From: Anaeromassilibacillus sp. An172
Lineage (GTDB): Bacteria; Bacillota; Clostridia; Oscillospirales; Acutalibacteraceae
Direction: 5' to 3'
Assembly (NCBI RefSeq): GCF_002160515.1
Contig: NZ_NFKS01000002.1
Location: forward strand, 1-64,000
Length of the DNA stretch: 64,000 nt
The notes under the pieces were generated by a model. That model worked only from the letters and a program-made list of their open reading frames with translations, had not been told where the DNA came from and did no database searches. Shown one piece after another: positions 25,538 through 62,152 of the stretch. Position numbers and translations under genes: made by a program. Position 1 is the first letter of the stretch, and each line of letters begins with the position of its first letter.

Positions 25538-27439
25538 ATGGCTGTACTGAGTGTTCATAATCTGGAAATGAGTTTTTCTGAAAGGGTCTTGTTTTCTCAG
25601 GTTAGTTTTGATATTGAAGCTTCCGACAAGGTGGGTTTTATCGGTGTAAACGGAGTGGGAAAGACTACACTGTTTAAAATTCTTTGCGGTAAAATGGAGC
25701 AGACCGGAGGAGACTTCTTTACATCCAAAAATCTCAAAATAGGATATATGGAACAGCATGCCTGTTCAAATTCGGAAAATACGGTTTATAACGAGCTTTT
25801 AAGCGTGTTTCCTCACCTTATAAGAATGGAAGAGGAGATAGACAGACTCAATCTTGATTTGGAAATGGGCAGGTCAGATGAGAAAACTATAATGCGTCAT
25901 ACGGAGCTTTCGGAACAGTTTGCGGCTATGGACGGACTTGTTTATAAAAGCCGAACAGCCTCAGCTCTCACAGGCTTGGGATTTAAGCAGGAAGATTTTA
26001 ATATGCCTGTTAAAAAATTAAGCGGAGGACAGCGTTCAAAATTAAGCCTTGCAAAGCTTCTGCTTTCCGGTTCTGACATAATACTTCTTGACGAGCCTAC
26101 AAACCATTTGGATATAAATTCTGTAGGCTGGCTTGAAAGCTTTATAAGGGACTTTAAGGGAGCGGCGATTATAATAAGCCACGACAGATATTTCCTTGAT
26201 ACGGTTACAAATAAGACAATGGAACTTGAACACGAAAAGCTCCAGATGTACAAAGGAAACTACACCGAGTTTATAAGAAAAAAGGAAGAGGCAAAAAAGG
26301 CCGCTGAAAATAAATACAAAAAAGACATGGCGGAAATAAAGAGAATAGAGGGAATCATTGAACAGCAGAAAAGATGGAACCGTGAGAAAAACATTAAAAC
26401 CGCCGAAAGCAAACAGAAAGAAATAGACCGCATAAAGGAAAACCTTGTTGTACCTGAAAGCGAACTGGAAAACATAAAGTTCAAGTTTCAGCCAAACACT
26501 GAAAGCGGAAACGACGTTTTGATGTGCGAGGGAGTTTCAAAGACCTTTGGAGAAAAGAAGATTTTTGAAAATGTGAACATGCACATAAGAAAAGGAGAAA
26601 AGGTATTTATTGTGGGCAGCAACGGCTGCGGCAAGACCACACTTTTCAGAATAATAATGGGAACCGTGCCTGCGGACAGGGGAGAAATAGATTTCGGAGC
26701 AAAGGTTGAAACGGAATATTTCGACCAGATGCAGGAAAACCTAAATATGGAAAAGACCGCAATGGATGAAATATGGGATGAATATCCTAAAATGACCCAG
26801 ACACAGGTTAGAACCTCCTTGGGAGCTTTCCTTTTCAAAGGCGACGAGGTATTCAAGCCCATAAATCAGATGAGCGGCGGCGAGAGAGCCAGAGTTTCAC
26901 TTTTAAAGCTTATGCTGGGAGGAGGAAACTTCCTGCTTTTGGACGAACCTACCAACCATTTGGATACAACCTCAAGAGAGGCGCTGGAAGAGTCCTTGAA
27001 GTCTTATGAGGGCACAATGCTTATCATAAGCCACGACAGATATTTTATAAACAAGCTTTCAGACAGGATTTTGGAGTTAAAGCCCGAGGGTATGACAGAG
27101 TATCTTGGAAACTATGATTACTACATGGAAAAACGCCTTGAAAAATCCGGACAGGACAGCGGCAAAACTCATACAGAAACAAAAAAATCCGCAGGCGCTA
27201 TAGATTATAAAATGAAAAAGGAAATGCAGGCACAGGAAAGAAAACGCCGTTCCATGCTAAAAAAGACAGAACAGGAAATAGAGGAAACCGAGCTTGAAAT
27301 GGAAAAGGTAAATGAACAGCTTGCAGACCCTCAGGTAACAAGCGACTATCAAAAGCTTATAGAGCTTTCCGGAAAGCTTGAGGAGCTGAAAGCAAAGCAG
27401 GAACAGCTGTACGAGCAGTGGGCGGAGCTCAGCGACTGA
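25538..27439 (+). CDS. ABC-F family ATP-binding protein
   Basis: This 633-residue protein has two ABC ATPase domains and no membrane segment. Walker A sites are GVNGVGKTT and GSNGCGKTT, signatures are LSGGQRSK and MSGGERAR, and Walker B motifs end LLDEPTNHLD in both. A charged P-site linker (rich in K and E, about residues 240-305) lies between them, and a coiled-coil C-terminus follows. ABC-F proteins act on the ribosome, either easing stalls or protecting against antibiotics. Housekeeping and resistance forms cannot be told apart here. Confidence 0.93.
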   Translation: MAVLSVHNLEMSFSERVLFSQVSFDIEASDKVGFIGVNGVGKTTLFKILCGKMEQTGGDFFTSKNLKIGYMEQHACSNSENTVYNELLSVFPHLIRMEEEIDRLNLDLEMGRSDEKTIMRHTELSEQFAAMDGLVYKSRTASALTGLGFKQEDFNMPVKKLSGGQRSKLSLAKLLLSGSDIILLDEPTNHLDINSVGWLESFIRDFKGAAIIISHDRYFLDTVTNKTMELEHEKLQMYKGNYTEFIRKKEEAKKAAENKYKKDMAEIKRIEGIIEQQKRWNREKNIKTAESKQKEIDRIKENLVVPESELENIKFKFQPNTESGNDVLMCEGVSKTFGEKKIFENVNMHIRKGEKVFIVGSNGCGKTTLFRIIMGTVPADRGEIDFGAKVETEYFDQMQENLNMEKTAMDEIWDEYPKMTQTQVRTSLGAFLFKGDEVFKPINQMSGGERARVSLLKLMLGGGNFLLLDEPTNHLDTTSREALEESLKSYEGTMLIISHDRYFINKLSDRILELKPEGMTEYLGNYDYYMEKRLEKSGQDSGKTHTETKKSAGAIDYKMKKEMQAQERKRRSMLKKTEQEIEETELEMEKVNEQLADPQVTSDYQKLIELSGKLEELKAKQEQLYEQWAELSD

Positions 27440-27674
27440 TTATTTGTGTTTTGTGCATTTTATAACTTATTGGCTTTGAGTTTACTGCATGTGTGTTTCT
27501 AAGGTGAATTGAAAATACAATACAAAAGGATAATTTACCAAAATAAGTGAAATAATGGGATTTTCTATTGTAAAAAAAAAGAATTGCAAAAAAAACGTCG
27601 AAATGTTAATATGTTAGTGTAAGCAAGTATAATAATAAGGTGTAATAAAAAGGGTAGGAAATGGAGGAATGACG

Positions 27675-29963
27675 ATGTTTTGTCATAAATGCGGCAGAGA
27701 ACTCAACGACGATGTTTCCAGATGTCCTTTTTGTAATGCAGATACTTCCGCATATTTAAAAGATGATGACAGCTCACTTCGTGAAATTTTAAGACTCAGC
27801 GAAGAGTTGAACGAAGAAAGCGACACTGCCACAGACTCCTCTGGGGTTGAGATTGATACAGACGGCGAAGGTTTTACCGAACCTTTGACAGAGCCTTTGG
27901 ATACTCCAGACGATGAGGGAGAGGAATGGCATGACTGTTCTGTTACAGAGAGTTTAGAGGAAGATGCTCATCAGCTCAGAAAAGAGTTTGACACAAGCGA
28001 CGGTTTCTATATTCCTAAAGTAGCAGCCATTAAAGCGGGAATTTTGCCCAGTGAAGAGGAGCAGACAGAAGTTCTTCAGGAGGAAACTGCTGAAGTTGTT
28101 GATGACAGCCAGGAAGAAATTCAGGAAGAACCGGAACAGCAGGAAGATATTCAAGAGATTGAAACTATCGACGCTGAGGAAGAACCGGAAGAAGAGGAAT
28201 ATGTTGATGAGACAGAGGAATTTATCAGCAACTATGTTCCCATAAATGAAATACCGGAGGAAGAGCCGGAAGAAGAAAGAGAAATCGACGAAGATATAGA
28301 TTACGAAGACGGATTTGTAGCAAGCTATGATGATGGATTTACAGATAACGGCTACAGCGAAGAAAGAGTTCCTGAAGAAGAATTCTACGATGAAGAGTTT
28401 GAAGAAATCGAAGAGGAAGAACCTGAAAAGCCGAAAAAGAAAAGCGGTTCAAAAAAGAGATATGTAGTTATCCCTGTTTTGATAGTAATAGTAGCTGCGG
28501 CAGGATGGTTTGGACTTTCAGAGTTTGTTATAAATTCCTCAGCCAGCGAAGCTATATCGGCCTTTGCAGATAAGAAATACGACACAGCGGCGAGCATTTA
28601 TAATGAAAGCGTAAAAAATTCACCTATACAGATGTGGATTTTTGAGGGCAAAATGAACTCCTATATAGATGAAGTTTTAAATGAACATCGTGATAAGGTG
28701 TTAAGCTATGATGAAGCTAAAATTGCTTTGAACAGCGTTATTGCCCTTGATGACGACAGATTTATCGAAAAGGCAAAAGAAGCCCTTGAAACTATAGAGG
28801 CTTTGGAAGAGTCAAGAGCGGCTTATGCGGCAGGACAGAAGTATTTCACAAACGGTGATTATATTGCCGCCGCAAAGGAATTTGACAAGGTAATTGAAAG
28901 CGACCCTGACTACAGCAAGGCGGTTGCGTCAAGAGACCGTTCATATGAAAAGTATAAGGAAGATATTCTTTCAAGAACCAGCGGATGTGAAACAGTTGAG
29001 GAATACAGAGCAGCTATTGAACTTCTCAATGAAGCAGTTGAAAATCTTCCTAATGATACAGAGTTAAAAGCAAGACTCGACAACTGTAAAGAGGGTCTGG
29101 AAGAGGCAGTTATTTCAGAAACAGTTGAAAGCGCAAATTCTCTTATAGATTCAGGAAACTATAAGGATGCATTGAGTTTGATTGATGAAACTCTGAAAGA
29201 GTATCCGGACAACAGCACACTTTTGAATCTCAAGTCAAGCTGTACAGACAGTTATATTTCATCTTCGGTATCTCAGGCACAGCAGCTTGTAGCTTCTGAA
29301 AAATATATGGACGCTATTGACCTTATGGATTCAATGCTTGCCCAGTTCCCGGACAACGAAACACTTACAAATTGCAGAAACGAATGTGTAAACGCCTACG
29401 TTAACGCAGCAGTAAGCAGTGCCGATGAATTTATGGATGCAGGAAATTATGAAACTGCCCTTACTGTAATAAACAAGGCATTGAATGATTTGCCGGACAA
29501 TTCAACGCTTCTCAATAAGAAAGAAGAAATTGAAACCAATATGCCGGTGAGCCTTATGGAAGAGTGTCCGCCAACTGACGGCACAAACCTCAAGACCTTT
29601 ACAAACAGCTCAACCAGCAGCTTCAAAATTGACGGCAAAACCTACCGTGAAGGCTTTACCCTTTACAGTTCAAACGGTTGGTTTGCAAGCGGAAACGGTG
29701 TAGCTAATATGAAAATAGGCGGCGGCTATTCAAGACTTACTTTCAATGTGGGTAAGGTTGACGGAGGAAAAGATGTAAACGGTGTTCTCAATGTTTATGT
29801 TGATAACGAGCTTGTGGACACAATCACAATTTCCAGTGACAGCGGTTTGCAGTCCTTTGAAATACCACTTAATTACGGTTCAAACCTTAGATTTGAACTT
29901 TCCCCAGAAAGCGGAAGCTCAACACCGACTTACGGATTTACAAACCTTACTTTGTACAAGTAA
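27675..29963 (+). CDS. Zinc-ribbon, acidic linker, TM, TPR-repeat protein with C-terminal NPCBM-like domain
   Basis: This 762-residue protein has a modular layout. An N-terminal zinc ribbon (CHKCGRELNDDVSRCPFC) leads to a Glu/Asp-rich stretch of about 200 residues. A single membrane segment near residues 265-285 (VVIPVLIVIVAAAGWFGL) follows. The outside part carries TPR-like repeats (segments such as NYKDALSLIDETLKEYPDN recur three times) and an end domain resembling NPCBM sugar-binding folds. The acidic region would be cytosolic. It probably links a cytosolic zinc module to an envelope scaffold. The ATG at 27675 has GGAGG 7 nt upstream. Confidence 0.8.
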   Translation: MFCHKCGRELNDDVSRCPFCNADTSAYLKDDDSSLREILRLSEELNEESDTATDSSGVEIDTDGEGFTEPLTEPLDTPDDEGEEWHDCSVTESLEEDAHQLRKEFDTSDGFYIPKVAAIKAGILPSEEEQTEVLQEETAEVVDDSQEEIQEEPEQQEDIQEIETIDAEEEPEEEEYVDETEEFISNYVPINEIPEEEPEEEREIDEDIDYEDGFVASYDDGFTDNGYSEERVPEEEFYDEEFEEIEEEEPEKPKKKSGSKKRYVVIPVLIVIVAAAGWFGLSEFVINSSASEAISAFADKKYDTAASIYNESVKNSPIQMWIFEGKMNSYIDEVLNEHRDKVLSYDEAKIALNSVIALDDDRFIEKAKEALETIEALEESRAAYAAGQKYFTNGDYIAAAKEFDKVIESDPDYSKAVASRDRSYEKYKEDILSRTSGCETVEEYRAAIELLNEAVENLPNDTELKARLDNCKEGLEEAVISETVESANSLIDSGNYKDALSLIDETLKEYPDNSTLLNLKSSCTDSYISSSVSQAQQLVASEKYMDAIDLMDSMLAQFPDNETLTNCRNECVNAYVNAAVSSADEFMDAGNYETALTVINKALNDLPDNSTLLNKKEEIETNMPVSLMEECPPTDGTNLKTFTNSSTSSFKIDGKTYREGFTLYSSNGWFASGNGVANMKIGGGYSRLTFNVGKVDGGKDVNGVLNVYVDNELVDTITISSDSGLQSFEIPLNYGSNLRFELSPESGSSTPTYGFTNLTLYK

Positions 29964-52895: not shown

Positions 52896-53207
52896 ATGTC
52901 GAAAAAGTTAATAGCTTTTTATTCAAGAGCAGACGAAAACTATGTTAACGGACTTATAAAAGAACTTGAAGTTGGCAATACGGAAATTGCCGCAGGTATA
53001 ATCCAAGAGTTGACAGGAGCTGATTTGTTTAAAATTGAACAGGTTAATCCCTATTCAAAGAGCTACAACGAATGTATAGCCCAGGCTCAGGAGGATCAGA
53101 GAAAAAATGCCAGACCGGAGCTTAAAAGGTATCCGGAAAGCATAGATGATTACGACGTTATTTATCTTGGATATCCTAAAATGGAGCAGGGTTATATCTG
53201 TGTATAG
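52896..53207 (+). pseudogene. Flavodoxin gene truncated by the ICE
   Basis: The first 94 or so residues are a normal clostridial flavodoxin: KKLIAFYSRADENYVNG at the FMN loop, KIEQVNPYSKSYNECIAQAQ and DDYDVIYLGYP. In flavodoxins this is followed by an NYWGTMP-type loop and about 70 more residues. Here the sequence turns into KMEQGYICV and a stop supplied by the element DNA. The FMN site is incomplete, so the product is unlikely to function. The rest should lie past the right end of the ICE. Confidence 0.9.
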
Positions 53208-53367: not shown

Positions 53368-53730
53368 ATGAACACCAAGATCTGCTATCTATATCGGGAT
53401 GCAGGTAACTATAAGGTTCATAATGAGTGCGTTATCCAGGGGGAATTATCCAAGGAGCAAATCCAAAGCATTCTTGATTGCTGTGACATGGGGGAATATT
53501 TTATCCCAAGACAGGTCGGGATGCCGGAAAGGAGATTCGATGAGTATGATACCGAGGTCGATCATTGCTGGTTTGAAATCAGCGAAGATGGGTTTGAGCG
53601 CACAAATCAGCCTGCGAATATTCCTTTAACGCCCAGACAGCTTGTGGAGAACTTTGCCCTTCGTAAAGATAATTGGGATGACACGGAGTGTATCGATTCA
53701 GAAAATAGTGATTTAGGAATGGAGATGTAG
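53368..53730 (+). CDS. ICE hypothetical protein, first gene of the left end
   Basis: The protein has 120 residues and I do not recognise a named domain. It begins NTKICYLYRDAGNYKVHN, contains CDMGEYFIPRQVGMPERRFD and WFEISEDGFERT, and is probably a small alpha/beta cytosolic protein. It ends in an acidic tail closing SDLGMEM, one of several such ends in this region. AAAGGAGG precedes the ATG. The next gene starts 3 bp after its stop. Confidence 0.82.
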   Translation: MNTKICYLYRDAGNYKVHNECVIQGELSKEQIQSILDCCDMGEYFIPRQVGMPERRFDEYDTEVDHCWFEISEDGFERTNQPANIPLTPRQLVENFALRKDNWDDTECIDSENSDLGMEM

Positions 53731-53733
53731 CTG

Positions 53734-54030
53734 ATGAATGAATGGGAACGCCTGCACCAGCAGGCCAAACGGTACCAGACAGAGTATCCTCCCGGTACCC
53801 GGATCATGTTACTGAGCACGGGCAGAGATCCGAATCCTGTCGAGGATCAGACAAGAGGTACTGTCAAAGTAGTGGATGATATCGGAACACTGCACTGCTC
53901 GTTTGACAATGGAAGGTCTCTCGGAGTTGTGCCTGGTGAGGACTCGTTCCGCAAGCTGACGGAGGAAGAATTGGCAGAGGAACAGGAATCCGGCATGACT
54001 GAGGATCAAGGCCCCGTCATGGGAATGTAG
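53734..54030 (+). CDS. DUF4314 domain protein
   Basis: This 98-residue protein matches the DUF4314 pattern: PPGTRIMLLSTG, TRGTVKVVDDIGTLHCSFDN and LGVVPGEDSFRKL. The fold is likely a small SH3-like beta barrel. The last 20 residues are acidic and end PVMGM. It is a standard member of Tn1549-like gene strings. Its role in the element is unknown. It is probably translationally coupled to the previous gene. Confidence 0.88.
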   Translation: MNEWERLHQQAKRYQTEYPPGTRIMLLSTGRDPNPVEDQTRGTVKVVDDIGTLHCSFDNGRSLGVVPGEDSFRKLTEEELAEEQESGMTEDQGPVMGM

Positions 54031-54042
54031 GAGGTAAATCAT

Positions 54043-54183
54043 TTGGAAATGGAAATTGAGATTCCAGAGGCGCTGGTGGAGCCGCTTTTGATCCAGGCTG
54101 CCATTGAGGAAGTGCCTGTGGAGGAAATTGTAACAAGGGCAATTCAGAAATTCATGGAAAGAGGTGAACACAGTGGCTGCTGA
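54043..54183 (+). CDS. Small ICE protein, TTG start
   Basis: A 46-codon frame starts at TTG 54043 with AGGAGG 8 nt upstream. It encodes EMEIEIPEALVEPLLIQAAI and then VEEIVTRAIQKFMERGEH. The strand-helix-helix look is that of a minimal ribbon-helix-helix protein, and similar short proteins precede RHH genes in related elements as far as I recall. It overlaps the start of the next gene by 11 bp, so coupling is likely. Confidence 0.7.
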   Translation: MEMEIEIPEALVEPLLIQAAIEEVPVEEIVTRAIQKFMERGEHSGC

Positions 54184-54874
54184 CGGGAAGAAAGGCATTA
54201 CGGTCAAAGTCGATGCGGCTTTGCATGCCGAGATTACACAATATCTGCAAGACCACGGGATGACGATGACGGAGTTTGTCACACTGGCATTGCAGGATGA
54301 ACTGCATCCTAAAATTGATGAAAAGGAAGGGAAAAACATGGAGAAAATGAGGACACTGGCGTTTCAGGTGCCGGAAAGCCTGTTCCAGCGGATCAAGGAT
54401 TATCTGCACCGCAATAACATGACACAGAAAGACTTTGTCATCGGCCTGATTGAGCAGGAGCTGGATCGGGATCTGGCTGAGAGTCAGGAAACCGGCGAGG
54501 CCCAGGGTGACTTCGAGGATACAGAGGAACTGGAGGATACTGAGCAGTTGGACGCTGATCAGGAGTTACTGGAAGATGCGGAAACTGCTTCTTCTGCGGA
54601 GGGAATGGATGAAGCGGAACCGTCTATCTCCGATCAGGAAGAACCGGAGACATCTGAGGAAGGCCCTGATGCCGAAGAACTGGATGATGAGATGTCTCCA
54701 TTAGAGGAAACCGGCGAGTCAGAGGATCAGGACGATGAAGATATGTCAGAGGATGCCCTGGAGGATGAGGGCGAGGAAGAAACCGAAGAAGCCCTGGAGG
54801 ACGAATACGAGGATGAATCCGAGATTGAGGATGAATCGGAAGATGAACATGTAGGTTTCGCCATGGGAATGTGA
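54173..54874 (+). CDS. Tandem ribbon-helix-helix protein with long acidic tail
   Basis: This protein of about 233 residues starts with two similar ribbon-helix-helix-type units: GITVKVDAALHAEITQYL with GMTMTEFVTLALQDEL, then LAFQVPESLFQRIKDYL with NMTQKDFVIGLIEQEL. From about residue 105 to the end it is almost wholly Glu/Asp-rich, a DNA-mimic-like composition, and it finishes GFAMGM. GTG at 54173 has AAGAGG 8 nt upstream; a GTG at 54164 is less well spaced. It may regulate the element or bind DNA during transfer. Confidence 0.8.
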   Translation: MAADGKKGITVKVDAALHAEITQYLQDHGMTMTEFVTLALQDELHPKIDEKEGKNMEKMRTLAFQVPESLFQRIKDYLHRNNMTQKDFVIGLIEQELDRDLAESQETGEAQGDFEDTEELEDTEQLDADQELLEDAETASSAEGMDEAEPSISDQEEPETSEEGPDAEELDDEMSPLEETGESEDQDDEDMSEDALEDEGEEETEEALEDEYEDESEIEDESEDEHVGFAMGM

Positions 54875-54888
54875 GGTGAATACAGCCT

Positions 54889-55545
54889 ATGACAATCTAT
54901 CAGGCAGAATTGCTCCGCCGCCTCCCTCAATTAGACTGTACTGGGTATTATGGTTATCGGGATGGTCTGCTCCACATTTTTCACGGAGACGATCCTTTCT
55001 GTCGTCAGACACCCGAAGGCTTTCTCCGGTTTTATGAGGATCAGTTTGAGGCACTAAGCCAGACGGAACTCTATGATAAAATTCATCAAGAGGTCAGAGC
55101 CATCCGTGAGTATGTGGGCCTCTATGAAGCAGCCCCGCAGATGGAGGCAGAGGGCGTCCATGATTACCGGAAACTGGCGGAGTATGGGAATATCGTCCTG
55201 GCCGGAACGTATAATGAAAACCATGGTTTCATGTTTACCACATGGGATCAGGATAAAGAGCGCAGCTATGTATCCGGCGGCGATTATTCTCCCAATTATG
55301 CATATGCAAAAGAATCTTTCGTCCGACGTTCGGGGCTGATCCAGGAACAACGCCTGTTCCAGCCGGAAGAAGCAGAAAATCTCTATCGTTGTGTGGACTA
55401 CGCCAGAAATCACTGCGGCTCCCTCACCTTTGAGCAGTCGAAAGCGCTGGATGAGCTGGCGGAAAAGCTGTCGTTTGGCTATCCGGAGATTGAGAAAAAT
55501 CCCCCCACCTTTGAACCGGAGGATGGCCCACAACTGAATCTGTAA
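54889..55545 (+). CDS. ICE hypothetical protein
   Basis: The protein has 218 residues and no domain that I can name. It begins with YQAELLRRLPQLDCTGYYGY, has GNIVLAGTYNENHGFMFTTW at mid-length and ends acidic with PEDGPQLNL. A hydrophilic, mixed alpha/beta cytosolic protein is likely. The segment with RSYVSGGDYSPNYAYAKESF resembles pieces of polyvalent ICE proteins. GAGGTGA precedes the ATG, and a terminator follows the stop. Confidence 0.8.
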   Translation: MTIYQAELLRRLPQLDCTGYYGYRDGLLHIFHGDDPFCRQTPEGFLRFYEDQFEALSQTELYDKIHQEVRAIREYVGLYEAAPQMEAEGVHDYRKLAEYGNIVLAGTYNENHGFMFTTWDQDKERSYVSGGDYSPNYAYAKESFVRRSGLIQEQRLFQPEEAENLYRCVDYARNHCGSLTFEQSKALDELAEKLSFGYPEIEKNPPTFEPEDGPQLNL

Positions 55546-55556
55546 CTGAAGTGGCA

Positions 55557-55590
55557 CCCTTGCTTTGTTGATGAAGCGAGGGCTTTTTTT
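55557..55590 (+). terminator. Internal terminator in the ICE operon
   Basis: The stem CCCTTGCTT/AAGCGAGGG (one wobble) is followed by CTTTTTTT. It splits the ICE gene string into transcription units, unless read through. Confidence 0.85.
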
Positions 55591-55606
55591 ATGAAAGGAA
55601 CCATGA

Positions 55607-56230
55607 ATGATGTATTTTACCGAAACCGAAGCCCTCCGTGAGCTGGAGATCCTCATGCAGATGATCCCCGGTTTCCAGCCCAAGGGCTATGGGAGCATGG
55701 TCATGCCGGATCAGATTTATATCTGTCTGCAGGAACCGTCCCCTCCCACTTATCAGGAGATGATCGCGGATACCATGCATGCTGTCCGATACCGCCCCTT
55801 CCTGCAAAGAGTGGAGGAACTTCTAATCGAAAGCGAGATGAGGCCCATGAACTATCTAAGCAATCACCATCAGAAACTTTTCCAGATAGCCATCCAGAAA
55901 AAAGACAGGAAAAATTATGCCCTGTTGTCGGCACTCTATCTTTTTACCGCCGATCCGAGGCTCTGGCGCATCATGAGGCATCAGGTGGATGGGAACCTCA
56001 TCCGGTTTGACCGCAGGAAACTGTGCGGTTTGAATGAATACACCTATCCCCTCTACTGTGCGGCCAAGGATTTATATATGGGAACCAGGCATCTTACCAT
56101 CCGGGATCTGGCTGACAGGGAGCTGATCTCCCCAAAGCAGTTTGCCGCCATCTGCGATGCCATGGCAATCCGCAGATTCGGCCTGAAAGCCATAGAACCG
56201 GCAGAAAAAAAGGAGGAATGTGAACCATGA
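55607..56230 (+). CDS. ICE hypothetical protein
   Basis: This 207-residue, mostly helical protein has the recurring features EALRELEILMQMIPGFQPKG, LLSALYLFTADPRLWRIM and HLTIRDLADRELISPKQF. I do not recognise its family. Unlike most neighbours it does not end in a Gly/Met tail (it ends EECEP). AAAGGA precedes two ATGs in a row. It overlaps the following gene by 4 bp. Confidence 0.78.
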   Translation: MMYFTETEALRELEILMQMIPGFQPKGYGSMVMPDQIYICLQEPSPPTYQEMIADTMHAVRYRPFLQRVEELLIESEMRPMNYLSNHHQKLFQIAIQKKDRKNYALLSALYLFTADPRLWRIMRHQVDGNLIRFDRRKLCGLNEYTYPLYCAAKDLYMGTRHLTIRDLADRELISPKQFAAICDAMAIRRFGLKAIEPAEKKEECEP

Positions 56231-56943
56231 ACATCGAAGAAAGATATCCCCTTCTCATTGGGCATTCCAGCCAGGGAAATCATGAACTGCACAGCATTCA
56301 GGAGGTGGCGGATTTTATCTGCACCCAGGGGCTGGAAAGCGACCTGCTGATTACCCAGGAGGATGGCTCCTATTTTTTGAACACCTTCGGCATCTACATT
56401 GACCGGATTGCCGACATGGAATATCGTGAGGCGCTGCTGAAGGTGCTGATCCCCATGCAGATGGAACTGGACGGTACAGCAGAGATCGATGAGGAACCCA
56501 GCCCGGAGGATGAGCGGCTGGAAGAAGTCAATAAGAGGCTGGAGCCATTTGAACTGTACCAATGCGGCAACGGGAAATATGGGCTGTCTCTTCCTTTTTC
56601 TTTTCTGCAGGAACCCTATGAGAATTACGGACAGGCGGCGTTTAACCGGTTCGCGGAGGAACATGGCGAAGAAGCAAAGAATTCCTTCGGCCTGTATACC
56701 CATGGGAGCGGCTACGAATGGGAAAAAGTTTTCCAGGCCGCCTTTCAGGATGATGCGGGCTTGCGAAGAATTTCGTTTGACAGTGAGGCCGGAGGATTTT
56801 ACTGCTACTGCCCGGATGCCGAACTGCTGGAACGCATGGGGCTTGCGTTCAAGGCTATCTGCGATGATCCGGAGCGGTTTCAGGAAATGGTAAACCGCGC
56901 GCTTTCGGATGGGCAGGACGAAATGCCGGGGATGCAGCTATAA
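56227..56943 (+). CDS. ICE hypothetical protein with LPD-like character
   Basis: This 238-residue protein contains SIQEVADFICTQGLESDLLI, an acidic central linker and a C-terminal part with GGFYCYCPDAELLERMGLAF. The N-terminal third looks like small domains found in polyvalent conjugative-element proteins. It ends EMPGMQL after an acidic stretch. GGAGGAAT precedes the ATG and overlaps the previous stop. Confidence 0.78.
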   Translation: MNIEERYPLLIGHSSQGNHELHSIQEVADFICTQGLESDLLITQEDGSYFLNTFGIYIDRIADMEYREALLKVLIPMQMELDGTAEIDEEPSPEDERLEEVNKRLEPFELYQCGNGKYGLSLPFSFLQEPYENYGQAAFNRFAEEHGEEAKNSFGLYTHGSGYEWEKVFQAAFQDDAGLRRISFDSEAGGFYCYCPDAELLERMGLAFKAICDDPERFQEMVNRALSDGQDEMPGMQL

Positions 56944-56967
56944 GAAAGAAGAAATGGAGATGGAACA

Positions 56968-58557
56968 ATGGAATCCGATAGAAAAACCTTACAGATTGAA
57001 GTAGTCACAGAAAATGCTGACCAGAGCGGCGTTTATTTTACAGCCTTAGACCTTCCTGCCATGGGCGGCCGCATTCAGGACGCTCTCCAGAGACTCCGGG
57101 CTACAGAAAATCCGGCCCCCTCTTTCAACGTGAGCATCCGGGAAAGCCCAAAACTCCCGGAGCTGGCCGATACTATCCTGATCGCTCCCACGCTTCCGGA
57201 GCTAAACTTTTTTGCCCGCCGGCTGGCGTCCATGCCGGATGAGGATATCCTGCTTCTGAAAGGCGTATTCCGCTACCGGATGGAAGATGTCCGGTATGAG
57301 AACGGAATCCCCATGAAGGATCTGATCAACCTGACCTATGGACTGGAAGCGGTCATGATCGCCTCGAATGTCGGCGATGATGAAGCCTTGGGGCGGTTTG
57401 TCATCGAGAATGAGCTGAATGAAGATGTAAACGCCATCCCTGAGTCCTCCCTCTATCTGCTGGATTTGGCTCAGATCGGGAAAATGCAGAGGGAAAATGA
57501 TGGCGGCGTGTTCGTGGAGGGCTGTTACGTGGTAGCCGGGGCATATGAGCTGGCTGAGATTTATGATGGAACCCATCTGCCGGAAATAAAGGAAGAACCG
57601 GAGGATACTGTGTTCCGGCTTTTGGTCGCTCAAACGCCCATGGACGATCCGGAAGAAACCATTGGAAGTGCCGAGTGGATCAGCCTGCCGATTTCGCAGG
57701 AACAGGCAGATCAGGCGGCAAATCGACAAAACGAGGTTTGCATGGAAGACTGTGTTTATTTCGACATGGAATCCGCCATCCCACAGATCGATGACCAGGT
57801 CTTCGACAGCATGGATCACTTTGCCCGGTTGAACCAGATTGCCATGCAGTATCAGGCCATGGACGAACCGGAGCAGATTAAATACAAGGCGGTACTGGAG
57901 GCCGAGCCGCACCTGACAATGGAAAAGGCCCTGGAGCTTGCCTCTCATCTTCCAGAGTATGAATTCACACCTCTGCCCTGTGATGAGGCGAACTTTTTCA
58001 AAGAATATCTGTCCCATCACTTGGACGCCCGCATGGATCGGAGGTGGCTGTCCACCATTGCAACACAGGCCGAAGGAGCCAGATTGCTGCAAAGTCTGAG
58101 CGCATCACAGACAGAATATGGAATCCTATCGGCCCGCGGGCATTCCCTGTACGAATTGGTTCCTTATGGGGAGTCGTCCAGAGAACTATCCACCCAGGCC
58201 CTGACGGATGAAAAGCTGGAAGTGGTGGAGGTGCTTGGGCAGACCGCCCTGTTTACCAATGGCCGGGTAACCGAACAGGAGCTTCCGGATGGGCTTTACC
58301 GCTATGACCTGCGGGAAGGAGAAAATCTGGCTTTCGCCACCATTGAAAGGAACGTGGCGGTAAATCACGCTGGTACGATCCTGACCAAAGCGCCGCTGGA
58401 CTTTGGCGGCCAGGAATATTTTGTATTCGATGACGATACCAGACCTAACTTCCTGGGCTACGACCTGACACCGGAGGAATTCCTGCAAACAGATTTTACC
58501 CAGACGGATGCCCAGGAGGAAGACACTGCCCCACAGATGGGAGGTATACAGTCATGA
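56968..58557 (+). CDS. Polyvalent ICE protein, ArdA/antirestriction-like
   Basis: This is the longest of the early ICE genes, 529 residues. The segment IPMKDLINLTYGLEAVMIAS then FVIENELNEDVNAIPESSLY is the pattern I associate with ArdA-like antirestriction modules in Tn1549-type elements. EPEQIKYKAVLEAEPHLTME and LDLAQIGKMQRENDGGVFVE support it. ArdA-type proteins mimic DNA and block type I restriction when DNA enters a new host. The C-terminal third holds a separate domain (LLQSLSASQTEYGILSARGH onward). It ends APQMGGIQS. The ArdA role is by recalled similarity only. Confidence 0.72.
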   Translation: MESDRKTLQIEVVTENADQSGVYFTALDLPAMGGRIQDALQRLRATENPAPSFNVSIRESPKLPELADTILIAPTLPELNFFARRLASMPDEDILLLKGVFRYRMEDVRYENGIPMKDLINLTYGLEAVMIASNVGDDEALGRFVIENELNEDVNAIPESSLYLLDLAQIGKMQRENDGGVFVEGCYVVAGAYELAEIYDGTHLPEIKEEPEDTVFRLLVAQTPMDDPEETIGSAEWISLPISQEQADQAANRQNEVCMEDCVYFDMESAIPQIDDQVFDSMDHFARLNQIAMQYQAMDEPEQIKYKAVLEAEPHLTMEKALELASHLPEYEFTPLPCDEANFFKEYLSHHLDARMDRRWLSTIATQAEGARLLQSLSASQTEYGILSARGHSLYELVPYGESSRELSTQALTDEKLEVVEVLGQTALFTNGRVTEQELPDGLYRYDLREGENLAFATIERNVAVNHAGTILTKAPLDFGGQEYFVFDDDTRPNFLGYDLTPEEFLQTDFTQTDAQEEDTAPQMGGIQS

Positions 58558-58757
58558 TGTTTGCTCTGGATTTTGTTCTTGGCCTGATCCTGGGAGCGGC
58601 GATTACCGCCCTGGCAGCCATGGCCTTGTTCAGTTATCGGGAATATCAGCGGGAAACCGCTGCGGAAATTGAAAAGCTGAGTAAGCGCCTGAATGAAACC
58701 CAGGCGATGATAAACCAAACAGAAATGGAGAGAAGGATTCATGGCAACAATCACTGA
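58554..58757 (+). CDS. Small membrane protein with coiled coil
   Basis: This 67-residue protein has one N-terminal membrane segment (FVLGLILGAAITALAAMALF), followed by a charged helix (AAEIEKLSKRLNETQAMINQ) that could form a coiled coil. The ATG overlaps the stop of the preceding gene, so translation is coupled. It overlaps the next gene by 17 bp. Function unknown; it could be an anchor for a complex at the cell membrane. Confidence 0.75.
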   Translation: MMFALDFVLGLILGAAITALAAMALFSYREYQRETAAEIEKLSKRLNETQAMINQTEMERRIHGNNH

Positions 58758-59322
58758 AATCAAAGCCGAGCAGCTCCGGCGTCCGGATACTCCGGAAGGG
58801 CTGATCCTTCAGGGCTGCGGCGGGGATCTGCAGGAATGGGTAACCGGCATCAATGACATGCTGACGGAGGAAAATATTCTGCTGGACGGGAGCCGGTTTG
58901 AACAGGCTTCTGTTTTTGAACATCAGGGCCTGACCAACCTGTTCCTCCCCTTTGACGATGTCAAGCTGGACATGGGAAAGCTGGCGATCTGGCGCTTGAA
59001 CACCCGTGAGCAGTTCGGGAGCATGTGGTGTTCTGACTACGTGGATAACCGGCTGGGCGGCCCTTTGGAAGAAAACGCCCCGGCACAAAAGCCGGACTGT
59101 CCTCTCATTGGGCAGAACGGAAACATCTTCAACCTGATGGGGATTGCCAGCCGGACACTCAAGGAACATGGCATGGAGGAACAAGCCAGGGAAATGCGGA
59201 GCCGCATTATGGAATCCGGCAGCTATGATAAGGCCCTGGTAATTATCGGAGACTATGTCAACATCACTTCTATCGATGAGACGGATGAGGATTTCGAGGA
59301 AGGGATGGACATGGACTTATAA
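58741..59322 (+). CDS. LPD28-like ICE protein
   Basis: This 193-residue protein contains the conserved segment KPDCPLIGQNGNIFNLMGIA and then MEEQAREMRSRIMESGSYDK and VIIGDYVNITS. I associate these with a large-polyvalent-protein-associated domain common in conjugative elements. The N-terminal half (FEQASVFEHQGLTNLFLPF) may bind nucleic acid or protein. It ends with a strongly acidic stretch and EGMDMDL. It begins inside the previous gene. Confidence 0.78.
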   Translation: MATITEIKAEQLRRPDTPEGLILQGCGGDLQEWVTGINDMLTEENILLDGSRFEQASVFEHQGLTNLFLPFDDVKLDMGKLAIWRLNTREQFGSMWCSDYVDNRLGGPLEENAPAQKPDCPLIGQNGNIFNLMGIASRTLKEHGMEEQAREMRSRIMESGSYDKALVIIGDYVNITSIDETDEDFEEGMDMDL

Positions 59323-59353
59323 ACCATTTGAAAGGAAGGAGAGGTGAAGAAAG

Positions 59354-59461
59354 ATGGCTGCATTTTTATCTGGAACTGTGGTTGGAGGGATCATGGGGAT
59401 TGTGATTTTATGCCTCTGCCAAGCGGCATCCCGTGCTGACCGGGAAATGCCAAAACTTTAA
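59354..59461 (+). CDS. DUF3789 small membrane protein
   Basis: A 35-codon frame encodes one membrane segment (LSGTVVGGIMGIVILCLCQA) followed by SRADREM. The size and the Cys/Ala-Ser-Arg-Ala-Asp-Arg ending match DUF3789, a recurrent tiny protein of Tn1549-like elements. GGAGAGGTG is upstream, about 6 nt from the ATG. Role unknown. Confidence 0.8.
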   Translation: MAAFLSGTVVGGIMGIVILCLCQAASRADREMPKL

Positions 59462-59477
59462 GTATCGCTAAAATTAC

Positions 59478-59521
59478 GCCGGTATCAATCGCCCTTTAAG
59501 ACGGTTGGTACCGGCTTTTTT
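59478..59521 (+). terminator. Terminator before the methylase gene
   Basis: The stem GCCGGTATCAATCG/CGGTTGGTACCGGC (with wobbles) is followed by TTTTTT. It precedes the adenine methylase gene by 30 bp, so the gene's expression depends on readthrough or on a promoter overlapping the hairpin. Confidence 0.8.
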
Positions 59522-59539
59522 GCTTTCCGGGCGGTTGGT

Positions 59540-59556
59540 GCCACCAAGGAGGTGGC
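59540..59556 (+). promoter_or_regulatory. Hairpin enclosing the methylase ribosome site
   Basis: GCCACC / GGTGGC form a 6-bp perfect stem with AAGGA as the loop. AAGGAGG, the ribosome site of the methylase gene, is split between loop and 3' arm, and the annotated GTG (59552) lies in the arm. This could limit translation of the methylase. Confidence 0.55.
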
Positions 59557-60532
59557 GAATATCAAAACACCTGTGAGCTGGGTGGGCAATAAAACGTCCA
59601 TCCTCCACATTCTCTATGCGCTGTTCCCGATCCGCTATGAGCGGTATATAGAACCCTTCGGCGGCTCCGGCGCAGTGCTGCTTGGCAAGGCTGAGCCGGA
59701 TAAATTCGAGGTTTACAACGACTACAATGGGAACCTGGTGAACCTGTTCCGCTGTATGCGTGACCGGCCTCTGTCCTTTATCCGGGAGCTGGGCTTTCTG
59801 CCCTTAAACGCCAGGGATGACTTCCTGGTCTTAAAGAAGTTCTTTCAGAAGGAAGAATTCACCGATGAATTCTTAAATCAGGAGCTGGATCTGACCACGA
59901 TTGTCCTGCCGGAGATCAAGGCGGAGGAAATCCGTGAGCTGTATAAAAAGGCCATGCATGATTATGACCTGCGCCGTGCGGTGATGTTCCTAAAACTCAT
60001 CCGCTACAGCTATTCCAGCTCAGGAAAGAGCTTCGCCTGCCAGCCCTTCTCCGTCCGGAGCCTGTTCGGGCTGATCCAGGATTTCAGCATCCGCATGGAG
60101 AACGCTGTCATCGAAAATCAGGACTTTGAAGTGCTGATCAGCCATTATGACCGCCCGGATGCCTTCTTTTACTGTGATCCGCCCTATTTCAGCAGCGAGT
60201 ATGTGTATGAGTGCGGATTTACCTGGGAGGATCATGTGCGTCTCCAAAGCACCTTGGCGGATGCGAAGGGCAAATGGCTGGTGTCCTATAATGACTGCCC
60301 GGAAATCCGGGATCTGTACCGGGGATCGGAATTCTTTGATTTTAAGCGTATCCACTCCATGGTGCAGAAATATGAGGCGGGCAAGGAATTCCCGGAGCTG
60401 CTCATCGGCAACTATGACCTGTATGAGAGGGAGCGCCGGAAACCGCATCAGATGACGCTGTTTTCCGATCCCAGCTTCGATTACGAAAAAACCTTAAAGG
60501 AGTGTATCATATCATGCAAGAAAAAATTGTAA
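59552..60532 (+). CDS. Dam-type DNA adenine methyltransferase
   Basis: This 326-residue enzyme has the S-adenosylmethionine motif IEPFGGSGAVLLGK near residue 30 and the catalytic DPPYF near residue 210. The N-terminal KTPVSWVGNKTSIL resembles D12-class N6-adenine methyltransferases. It would methylate element DNA and thereby protect it during transfer. The target site is unknown. The start is unclear: GTG at 59552 overlaps the ribosome site, while an in-frame ATC at 59561 has ideal spacing. It is followed closely by small genes. Confidence 0.88.
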   Translation: MANIKTPVSWVGNKTSILHILYALFPIRYERYIEPFGGSGAVLLGKAEPDKFEVYNDYNGNLVNLFRCMRDRPLSFIRELGFLPLNARDDFLVLKKFFQKEEFTDEFLNQELDLTTIVLPEIKAEEIRELYKKAMHDYDLRRAVMFLKLIRYSYSSSGKSFACQPFSVRSLFGLIQDFSIRMENAVIENQDFEVLISHYDRPDAFFYCDPPYFSSEYVYECGFTWEDHVRLQSTLADAKGKWLVSYNDCPEIRDLYRGSEFFDFKRIHSMVQKYEAGKEFPELLIGNYDLYERERRKPHQMTLFSDPSFDYEKTLKECIISCKKKL

Positions 60533-60732
60533 AGGGATTTATTTTCATGCCTGTACCCGCCGATCTGTTCATGGCCTCCGGCATCGAGCCGCTGTCGCTG
60601 CTTCGTTACTCCGCCTCGGAGGGCCGGATCGTCATTGAAGTGATGGATGGCATGGAAGACGATATCGCCTGCGATGGCGATTGTGAGAACTGCCCTCATG
60701 CGGATGCTTGCGAGGAAAGTGAGGTGTTCTGA
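60514..60732 (+). CDS. Small Cys-cluster ICE protein
   Basis: This 72-residue protein has a hydrophobic N-terminus (KGFIFMPVPADLFMASGI) and ends with a cysteine cluster CDGDCENCPHADAC, probably a small metal or redox site. It is found beside AbrB-like genes in similar elements as far as I recall. The ATG at 60514 follows AAAGGAG by 11 nt, and its stop overlaps the next start. Confidence 0.78.
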   Translation: MQEKIVKGFIFMPVPADLFMASGIEPLSLLRYSASEGRIVIEVMDGMEDDIACDGDCENCPHADACEESEVF

Positions 60733-61031
60733 TGGGGCCGATGTACCGTGTCCTCGGTAAACGGGGGCGCATTACCATCCCCTTTGAAATCCGCAAGCGT
60801 GTGGGCTTTGCCTACAATGACATTCTGTCCTTCACCGAGCAGGATGACCGCACCGTAGTGGTAAAACGGGAAAAGATCTGCGATGAGTGCAAAGCAAAAG
60901 AACGGGCCAAGGATGACGAGGTATCGCTGCTGGAATTCCTAAACAGTCTTACCCCGGAGGAACAGCATGCGGCCCTGATCCATCTGTCTGTCAAATGGGC
61001 GGAGAAAAAGGGCGGTGATTTTTATGGATAG
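60732..61031 (+). CDS. AbrB/MazE/SpoVT family DNA-binding protein
   Basis: This 99-residue protein has the swapped-hairpin motif RVLGKRGRITIPFEIRKRVG (residues about 5-25), with FAYNDILSF and VVKREKICDECKA after it. A CxxC pair follows, and a helical C-terminus completes it. It probably represses ICE genes or pairs with the preceding Cys protein. Its ATG overlaps the previous stop (ATGA arrangement), and it overlaps the DUF3849 gene by 8 bp. Confidence 0.88.
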   Translation: MGPMYRVLGKRGRITIPFEIRKRVGFAYNDILSFTEQDDRTVVVKREKICDECKAKERAKDDEVSLLEFLNSLTPEEQHAALIHLSVKWAEKKGGDFYG

Positions 61032-61758
61032 CCGAAAGCCCCTCTATCGCCATTCTCTGAAGGAGGCTGTCCGGCATGAGGAAAAAGATCTCTGGCGGGA
61101 AAGTTATAAGATCAACTGCGACTGCGCCAGGGCCATCGAGCGGATCATTGCCGAAAACTATGATGGCAAGAAGCTGGGGCCGGATCTGGCGGAGCCGATT
61201 ATCCAGCAGTATGGCTTCAACCGTGTGAACTGGGTGCTGGCCAATACCGTACAGCAGAAAAAAGAAGATGGCCGTATCTCCCCGGAAAACCGGCAATGGG
61301 CAGAAACCTTCCCGATTCCCCAGGAGGATCATAACTGGCAGTTTGAAGTAAGTTCCCATCCGGGGCTGACGGATTTGTTCATAGGCGATGTGCGGAAGGC
61401 ATGGCAGGCCCTGGGCCTGTTTACCGCCGCTCACTGTGTGGAGAACAGCCAGAATCAGGACTATACCGGGAAACTGCTGGTGCTGAACCCTCATATCCTG
61501 GGCAGCGCCTACCAGACACCGGAGCGTCAGCTCTTCCTTGCCAAGGATGGATGGGGATGCATCCCCGGCGCTCCCAGGCAGACCGTGTTCGGGAGATTCT
61601 TAAGCGAGGAAAAGGATCAGATTACCTTTTTCAACCGCTCCGATTTTATCGGAGTCCTGAGCGCAGAATATCTGCCGGATTGGGCGAAGGAAAAACTTGC
61701 GGCAATGGAGGTGCCGGAGACGGAGGAAACCCCGTCCGATGGCATGACTTTGCAATAA
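61024..61758 (+). CDS. DUF3849 domain protein
   Basis: This 244-residue protein carries the DUF3849 pattern: LYRHSLKEAVRHEEKDLWRE, YKINCDCARAIERII, then QQYGFNRVNWVLANTVQQK and DGRISPENRQWAETF. The domain is common in Tn1549-like elements and polyvalent proteins. The C-terminal half has no clear homologue. It ends acidic, then SDGMTLQ. The ATG at 61024 follows GGCGGTGAT; an ATG three codons earlier is less well placed. Confidence 0.85.
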   Translation: MDSRKPLYRHSLKEAVRHEEKDLWRESYKINCDCARAIERIIAENYDGKKLGPDLAEPIIQQYGFNRVNWVLANTVQQKKEDGRISPENRQWAETFPIPQEDHNWQFEVSSHPGLTDLFIGDVRKAWQALGLFTAAHCVENSQNQDYTGKLLVLNPHILGSAYQTPERQLFLAKDGWGCIPGAPRQTVFGRFLSEEKDQITFFNRSDFIGVLSAEYLPDWAKEKLAAMEVPETEETPSDGMTLQ

Positions 61759-61777
61759 ATCAAACAGGAGGAAAACC

Positions 61778-62152
61778 ATGGCAACGAAACAATCAGAAAA
61801 CGGGCAGAAGAAAAAAGCCCCGGCCTTCAGCGCCAAGATCGATGCCCTGTGCGACACCGGCTCCAGCACCAAGGCGTTTGCCAGTGTCTGCATTTCCGGG
61901 CGCTTTGTTGTCCGTGACATTGCGGTGATGGAGGGCAAGAACGGACTCTTTGCCCGGATGCCGTGCCGCTCCTACCAGGACAGGCATGGAAACACCCACT
62001 ATTCGGACACCTTCTTCCCGCTGAACGCAAATGACCGCACTGCCATCAATGAGGCGGTTCTGTCCGCTTATCAGCAGGAGCTGGAACAGAGCGAGGCGGA
62101 AGGGCTGGACGAAAGCGAGGACGCATCCGAAGGGATGGCTCCTCAGATGTAA
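61778..62152 (+). CDS. SpoVG family protein
   Basis: This 124-residue protein matches SpoVG: KAFASVCISGRFVVRDIAVM, FARMPCRSYQDRHGNTHY, then SDTFFPLNANDRTAINEAVL. SpoVG proteins are small RNA/DNA-binding regulators that affect sporulation and cell division in firmicutes; ICE copies may alter host expression. It ends with an acidic stretch and SEGMAPQM. AGGAGG precedes the ATG. Confidence 0.88.
   Translation: MATKQSENGQKKKAPAFSAKIDALCDTGSSTKAFASVCISGRFVVRDIAVMEGKNGLFARMPCRSYQDRHGNTHYSDTFFPLNANDRTAINEAVLSAYQQELEQSEAEGLDESEDASEGMAPQM

Follow-up and report, generated by a model that had tools for sequence, protein, structure and literature searches.

The VirB/D4 type IV secretion system (T4SS) of Agrobacterium uses a C-terminal signal common to the relaxase VirD2 and to protein effectors, and this signal is reportedly, in work by Vergunst from 2005, positively charged. 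In Legionella, DotM binds acidic C-terminal signals of the Dot/Icm effectors, and the DotM-binding peptide of CegC3 ends RFTM (PMC5802825). Signals for a T4SS may lie at the N-terminus, at the C-terminus or within the protein, those at the C-terminus described in this source being positively charged or hydrophobic (PMC11288057). Among conjugative systems, the F-plasmid T4SS delivers SSB, PsiB, ParA and ParB to recipients (PMC8406263), and Tn1549-like integrative and conjugative elements (ICEs) of Firmicutes carry, according to the accessible part of Iyer et al. 2017, polyvalent proteins or early-phase effectors, for which delivery to the recipient was predicted (PMC5512222). In this study, an ICE of Anaeromassilibacillus sp. 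An172 was analysed, which lies partly in a window of 64,000 nucleotides (the whole stretch of DNA that was analysed, i.e. the first 64 kb of the 180.8-kb contig NZ_NFKS01000002.1) and extends past its end, to at least about 91.5 kb of the contig. Nine proteins encoded in its block 53368-62152 share a short C-terminal tail, whose distribution and probable role are described below. The literature searched, outside which lay most subscription journals and preprints, held no description of such a tail, and it contained demonstrations of conjugative protein delivery for Gram-negative systems only.

Nine proteins with a common C-terminal tail

Tails were scored by composition log-odds over the last 18 residues (the final 6 and the preceding 12), with a model whose training set was the main families homologous to the nine proteins in other genomes, the ICE of the window and its near copies being excluded. 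All nine tails pass this model (scores 6.2 to 19.1). They are listed here, followed by three genes of the same block without a tail:

53674..53727 (+): tail ..DNWDDTECIDSENSDLGMEM of gene 53368-53730, no Pfam match; score 10.1
53974..54027 (+): tail ..ESGMTEDQGPVMGM of gene 53734-54030, DUF4314 (PF14192, E=1e-25); score 19.1
54818..54871 (+): tail ..ESEDEHVGFAMGM of gene 54173-54874, N-terminus RepB-regulator-like (weak PF10723), C-terminal half long and acidic; score 16.6
55489..55542 (+): tail ..FEPEDGPQLNL of gene 54889-55545, no Pfam family, orthologues terminating PQLNM or PILNM; score 6.2
56887..56940 (+): tail ..SDGQDEMPGMQL of gene 56227-56943, C-terminal Imm51-like domain (PF15595, E=3e-11); score 10.0
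58501..58554 (+): tail ..AQEEDTAPQMGGIQS of gene 56968-58557, LPD28 (E=9e-30), N-terminal half weakly ArdA-like (ArdA E=1e-4, below cut-off), orthologues terminating GGMQL; score 16.2
59266..59319 (+): tail ..DETDEDFEEGMDMDL of gene 58741-59322, no Pfam family; score 14.2
61702..61755 (+): tail ..PETEETPSDGMTLQ of gene 61024-61758, DUF3849 (PF12960, E=1e-42); score 9.9
62096..62149 (+): tail ..DESEDASEGMAPQM of gene 61778-62152, SpoVG (PF04026, E=3e-18); score 16.4
55607..56230 (+): ICE gene without tail; score -13.0, family 0/40
59552..60532 (+): DNA adenine methylase-like (Dam-like) ICE gene without tail; score -14.1, family 0/41
60732..61031 (+): AbrB-like regulator without tail; score -13.1, family 0/30

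A preliminary description of this block had quoted nine C-terminal ends with their stop positions, all of which are exact. It had also called the nine proteins consecutive or near-consecutive; the nine tails are real, but they belong to 9 of the 15 called genes and form no unbroken run. The other six genes of the block do not pass (0/6, every score below -5) and, as had been stated, the tail is lacking from the ICE methylase, from the AbrB-like regulator and from the chromosomal genes of the window (0/50). A lack of enrichment had been named beforehand as a possible refutation; the comparison with control proteins, of which 1/416 pass, revealed strong enrichment both for the block (9/15, Fisher p = 4e-14) and for the whole ICE (15/46, p = 1e-15), which rules out chance composition as the source of the tails. 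The pass threshold was chosen after the control scores had been inspected and the gene caller was simple, neither of which is able to yield differences of such size.

Across 240 distinct tails the final residue is M in 56% (controls 2.3%), L in 21% and Q in 9%, M makes up 43% at position -3, and positions -4 to -6 are mainly G or M, with E, D and Q upstream. D and E are enriched at -18 to -7 (log2 +1.7). The core is depleted of K and R (log2 -2.8 and -1.1) and of A (log2 -1.1), and K and R are likewise depleted upstream (-2.3 and -1.9). When the last 18 residues are shuffled the number passing drops by half, and internal 18-mers from tailed proteins pass in 1.5% of cases. Of the acidic stretch and the Gly/Met end in the initial picture, the end is the stronger part; the acidic lead-in is common but not invariable, being Gln-rich or basic in some relatives. 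The strong acidic enrichment ahead of the end would suit a DNA-mimicking or solubilising tail without a specific receptor, as in ArdA-type anti-restriction proteins, which are acidic DNA mimics; such a function is nevertheless very improbable here, as it leaves unexplained the terminal M, the G/M at -2 to -6 and the tails with Gln-rich or basic lead-ins.

The nine tails use different codons, share no DNA homology with one another and are flanked by differing DNA. Their similarity is therefore one of protein, and spread by copying of a single tail DNA segment is unsupported. Another conceivable source is gene packing, in which the ribosome-binding site and start codon of the next gene encode the terminal Gly, Glu and Met: GGA and ATG codons are frequent in tails and some genes nearly abut. 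However, the tail fraction is alike (0.73-0.85) whether the next gene overlaps or follows after a gap of 200-3000 bases, and overlapping genes from non-tailed families are never tailed (0/125). With tail frequency independent of next-gene distance, this artefact was excluded.

Families and ICE types that carry the tail

The downstream part of the ICE encodes sortase B, a VirB6-like protein, VirB4, a MobP3 relaxase and a Toprim/DUF3991 primase, and the gene of a VirD4-like coupling protein is at contig 89332-91239. The nearest NCBIfam models of its VirB4 are Mbov_0397 and CD1110, with scores below their cut-offs, and the ICE class in question is that with a VirB4 of the Mbov_0397/CD1110 kind, a MobP3 relaxase and a VirD4-type coupling protein. 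About 75 related loci were collected from 300 genomes of the same family and from one scan of 84,980 species genomes; since the query for this collection was one of the nine proteins (that with LPD28), they are ICEs of one broad class. A near-identical ICE (locus L138), whose LPD28 protein is 93% identical, occurs in the culturable commensal Blautia schinkii DSM 10518. The LPD28 protein gave no match in viral contigs and none in a plasmid collection. Three records labelled 'Bacteriophage sp.' (L329-L331; MT835596, MT835654 and MT836036) are fragments of the same ICE class, and their VirB4 genes (57-85% identical) and tailed proteins suggest that they are mislabelled.

In these loci, 47-100% of the members of the nine families are tailed, so that the free variation among orthologues which had been set as the other possible refutation is not the case. 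As the tails are enriched and do not vary freely, the feature stands. Unrelated families held out of the training also pass, namely fam19 (9/9), Tad4 (3/3), fam24 (6/7), fam37 (4/5) and fam17 (10/16). Of the other ICE families, 35/47 have no passing member, among them AbrB, VirB6 and the two methylases; to the three zero-pass families listed above the cytosine methylase-like one (0/29) is added, and there is no pass either for the SpaA-like surface protein, for VirB6 or for other proteins of the machine. One further family, fam9 (YodL-like; e.g. L040:13528-14211), has an aromatic end (..GFMIYPM, ..FFFQAW), and 30% of it passes the model.

The tail is restricted to one ICE class and is independent of the protein body that carries it. 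SpoVG copies are tailed in 33/35 cases within the class and in 0/8 elsewhere (chromosomal-type, phage, plasmid and other-ICE settings, from plasmid and phage records), one of the eight sitting in a different ICE type (locus L233), and the SpoVG tail is located outside the solved SpoVG fold. Several orthologues of 58741 are without about 70 residues of the C-terminal body, yet end ..DEDMDEGFGMRQ; in the 58741 protein itself the tail is predicted to be disordered (AlphaFold2 pLDDT below 50 for residues 181-193), and a Foldseek search of this model against the PDB gave no significant match. The tail is thus C-terminal and separable from the folded body, as is expected of a T4SS translocation signal.

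Two other T4SS-bearing ICE regions of the same genome have no tailed proteins (0/73), which disfavours a general host function. This bears on the idea of a C-terminal degron keeping potentially harmful cargo short-lived in the host. Degrons are likewise short, disordered, C-terminal and modular, but a host protease should act for all ICEs, including these two, and the tail also occurs on relaxases of mobilizable elements (see below). Moreover, ssrA-type degradation tags are Ala-rich, and the Gly/Met end, with A depleted in the core, is unlike the LAA end of such a ssrA/ClpX-type tag. A degron is therefore improbable.

Beyond the window, six more ICE genes of contig 66719-89281 carry the tail, and more than one recognised domain is the exception among tailed proteins:

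66719-68155 (contig): Tad4-domain protein (Tad4 E=3e-31, type I Thoeris inhibitor), tail ..EEPGPAMSQ
68176-68586 (contig): tail ..ESIGMTGPGM
74648-75358 (contig): tail ..ESIAGFTPGM
pentapeptide/DUF6329 protein: tail ..QDSGPALSM
78947-79630 (contig): tail ..TTPPVQEM, a weaker case
Toprim primase: tail ..NESLSMAMQQ

The ICE also encodes a large SpaA-like surface protein (window 62263 to contig 65913), and its class B sortase gene is at contig 70715-71497. At the left edge, a flavodoxin-like gene (window 52896-53207, ending ..VIYLGYPKMEQGYICV) is apparently interrupted by the ICE; its other half, which would place the right end, was sought without success in the following 117 kb of the contig.

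Tails on relaxases

An unbiased search of the 300 genomes for MGGM followed by a stop codon gave 34 matches, compared with 9 for the reversed pattern. Those closing long open reading frames (ORFs) are nearly all mobile-element proteins, an Ffh-like protein being the clear chromosomal exception. PF03432 relaxases account for several of them, with the ends GGGPVMGGM, NTGPVMGGM or NNGMGGM, and the neighbourhoods of these relaxases (some on short contigs) contain MobC-like and recombinase genes and no T4SS genes. The source genome has a PF03432-type relaxase tail as well (..KKQGPVMSGM, contig C13); on the same contig, an ORF at 27054-28973 resembles, by eye, a tetracycline ribosomal-protection gene amid mobile-element genes. 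The PF03432 relaxases of the small gut plasmids L326-L328 have no tail, and the tail is therefore not universal among mobilization relaxases.

A second group of relaxases, MobP3/MobL, could be compared by genetic context. Beside T4SS genes they mostly terminate right after a conserved ..KKQAHGLKQ, whereas those without nearby T4SS genes extend into ..DEDEDDGFTMSM, ..DMDDDEAFGMRM or ..YEEEQGPNLIM, with ends such as DDGFTMSM, DEAFGMRM and EEEQGPNLIM. The cargo-trained model is passed by 6/12 of the latter and by 3/39 of the former (Fisher 0.003, rank test 8e-5). On an 8.1-kb Subdoligranulum plasmid the relaxase ends ..ENDFEPQM with a low score, and two other proteins pass. The MobP3 relaxase of the ICE itself (contig 84883-87831; L005:14883-17831) is fused to about 10 Sel1 repeats, and several of its relatives are likewise long (900-1100 aa).

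Proposed role of the tail and comparison with known systems

The preliminary description had put forward three readings of the tail, namely secretion through a T4SS, docking and degradation. Secretion or docking has gained support from the tailed relaxases of T4SS-less elements, the absence from other ICE types and the retention of the tail after truncation, and degradation has become less likely. Recruitment to a conjugation channel fits best, because the tail is found on relaxases and unrelated cargo, not on machine parts or on enzymes of the donor side such as methylases, and in one ICE class only. We consider it probable that the tail acts as a C-terminal signal recruiting proteins to the T4SS of this class of Clostridia ICEs, by which cargo is delivered together with the DNA. 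Cytosolic cargo (anti-defence, DNA-protection and establishment factors) would bear a flexible acidic linker with a Met/Gly-rich free C-terminus; this free end would be bound by a channel receptor, for which the coupling protein or an associated adaptor is the likeliest candidate, and the bound cargo would be fed through the channel into the recipient alongside the DNA. Mobilizable elements that have no channel of their own may place the same end on their relaxases and so be accepted by the ICE machine, the cis-encoded relaxase being recognised via its own conserved end and trans-acting substrates via the tail. The cargo fits delivery to a recipient, since the Tad4 family consists of Thoeris inhibitors, the LPD28 domain belongs to polyvalent proteins, and SSB and PsiB are delivered by the F plasmid.

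Several observations weigh against this proposal. These are: (i) the tails of the PF03432 relaxases share the Met/Gly core only, with a basic instead of an acidic lead-in, and hence score low in the full model; (ii) the MobP3 contrast comes mostly from one clade of mobilizable elements and thus reflects few independent events, the phylogeny-corrected comparison of tail and T4SS context resting on just 2-3 independent contrasts; and (iii) the only substrate that is certain, the MobP3 relaxase of the window ICE itself, has a basic end and no tail, so that its recognition would require another route. Because of this last point, and because translocation, like binding and the identity of the receptor, is something we infer, the secretion step is worded as conditional throughout.

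A rival reading is docking without export, at some other hub that the element encodes (for example a complex for replication or DNA protection, or the relaxosome), where cargo would be gathered on the element DNA or at the membrane within one cell, much as repair proteins are gathered by the SSB tail. An acidic linker whose free end is short and hydrophobic is reminiscent of tails that bind hubs in general, many tailed proteins appear DNA-related (SpoVG, primase, RepB-regulator-like), and relaxases could dock at the same hub. Tailed relaxases are, however, found on elements without other ICE genes nearby, so the hub must serve in trans, and the obvious hub useful in trans is the conjugation machine; here too, the window ICE's own relaxase has no tail. 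Docking without export is thus rather unlikely.

If recruitment to the channel is taken further, there is perhaps an even chance that the machines of gut Clostridia inject about 15 unrelated proteins bearing one motif (anti-Thoeris, anti-restriction-like, SpoVG-like, primase and others) and that mobilizable elements forge this label on their relaxases. If so, the last ten residues would become a computational tool for discovering anti-defence proteins that are still unknown, and the tail would be an address label, open to being read, on proteins that a Gram-positive conjugation system delivers. Delivery of anti-defence proteins by ICEs before gene expression would be a directly testable prediction, and the choice of helper by mobilizable elements would be easier to explain.

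Among known systems, the Glu-rich/E-block signals of Dot/Icm are also short, acidic, C-terminal and common to different effectors, and their acidic stretch has a counterpart in the D/E enrichment of the tail at -18 to -7. The Dot/Icm effectors, however, target eukaryotic hosts via a type IVB machine, while the tail belongs to a Gram-positive conjugative element and is most constant in its Met/Gly end. VirB/D4 may resemble the present case in that one signal is found on relaxase and effectors; the tail, too, occurs on cargo and on relaxases, although the latter belong to elements without T4SS genes nearby and most cis-encoded MobP3 relaxases of T4SS-bearing ICEs lack it. VirB/D4 differs in that its signal is positively charged and Arg-rich, whereas the tail is for the most part acidic, terminates in Met/Gly and is depleted of K/R. 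The SSB-type acidic tip ends Pro-Phe, unlike the M, L or Q of the tail. In F-type conjugation, establishment and anti-stress proteins travel with the plasmid (PMC8406263), as proposed here, but the system is Gram-negative and its signals are C-terminal or internal, with no shared motif reported in the accessible part of the source (PMC11288057). The polyvalent or early-phase effectors are known from the same broad element class and have LPD28 and ArdA domains; the accessible part of that study mentions no shared C-terminal signal for them (PMC5512222). Most tailed proteins are small, with no more than one recognised domain instead of several per polypeptide, and, as in those effectors, LPD and anti-defence domains (LPD28, Tad4) stand beside T4SS genes, here encoding VirB4, a VirB6-like protein, MobP3 and the VirD4-like coupling protein.

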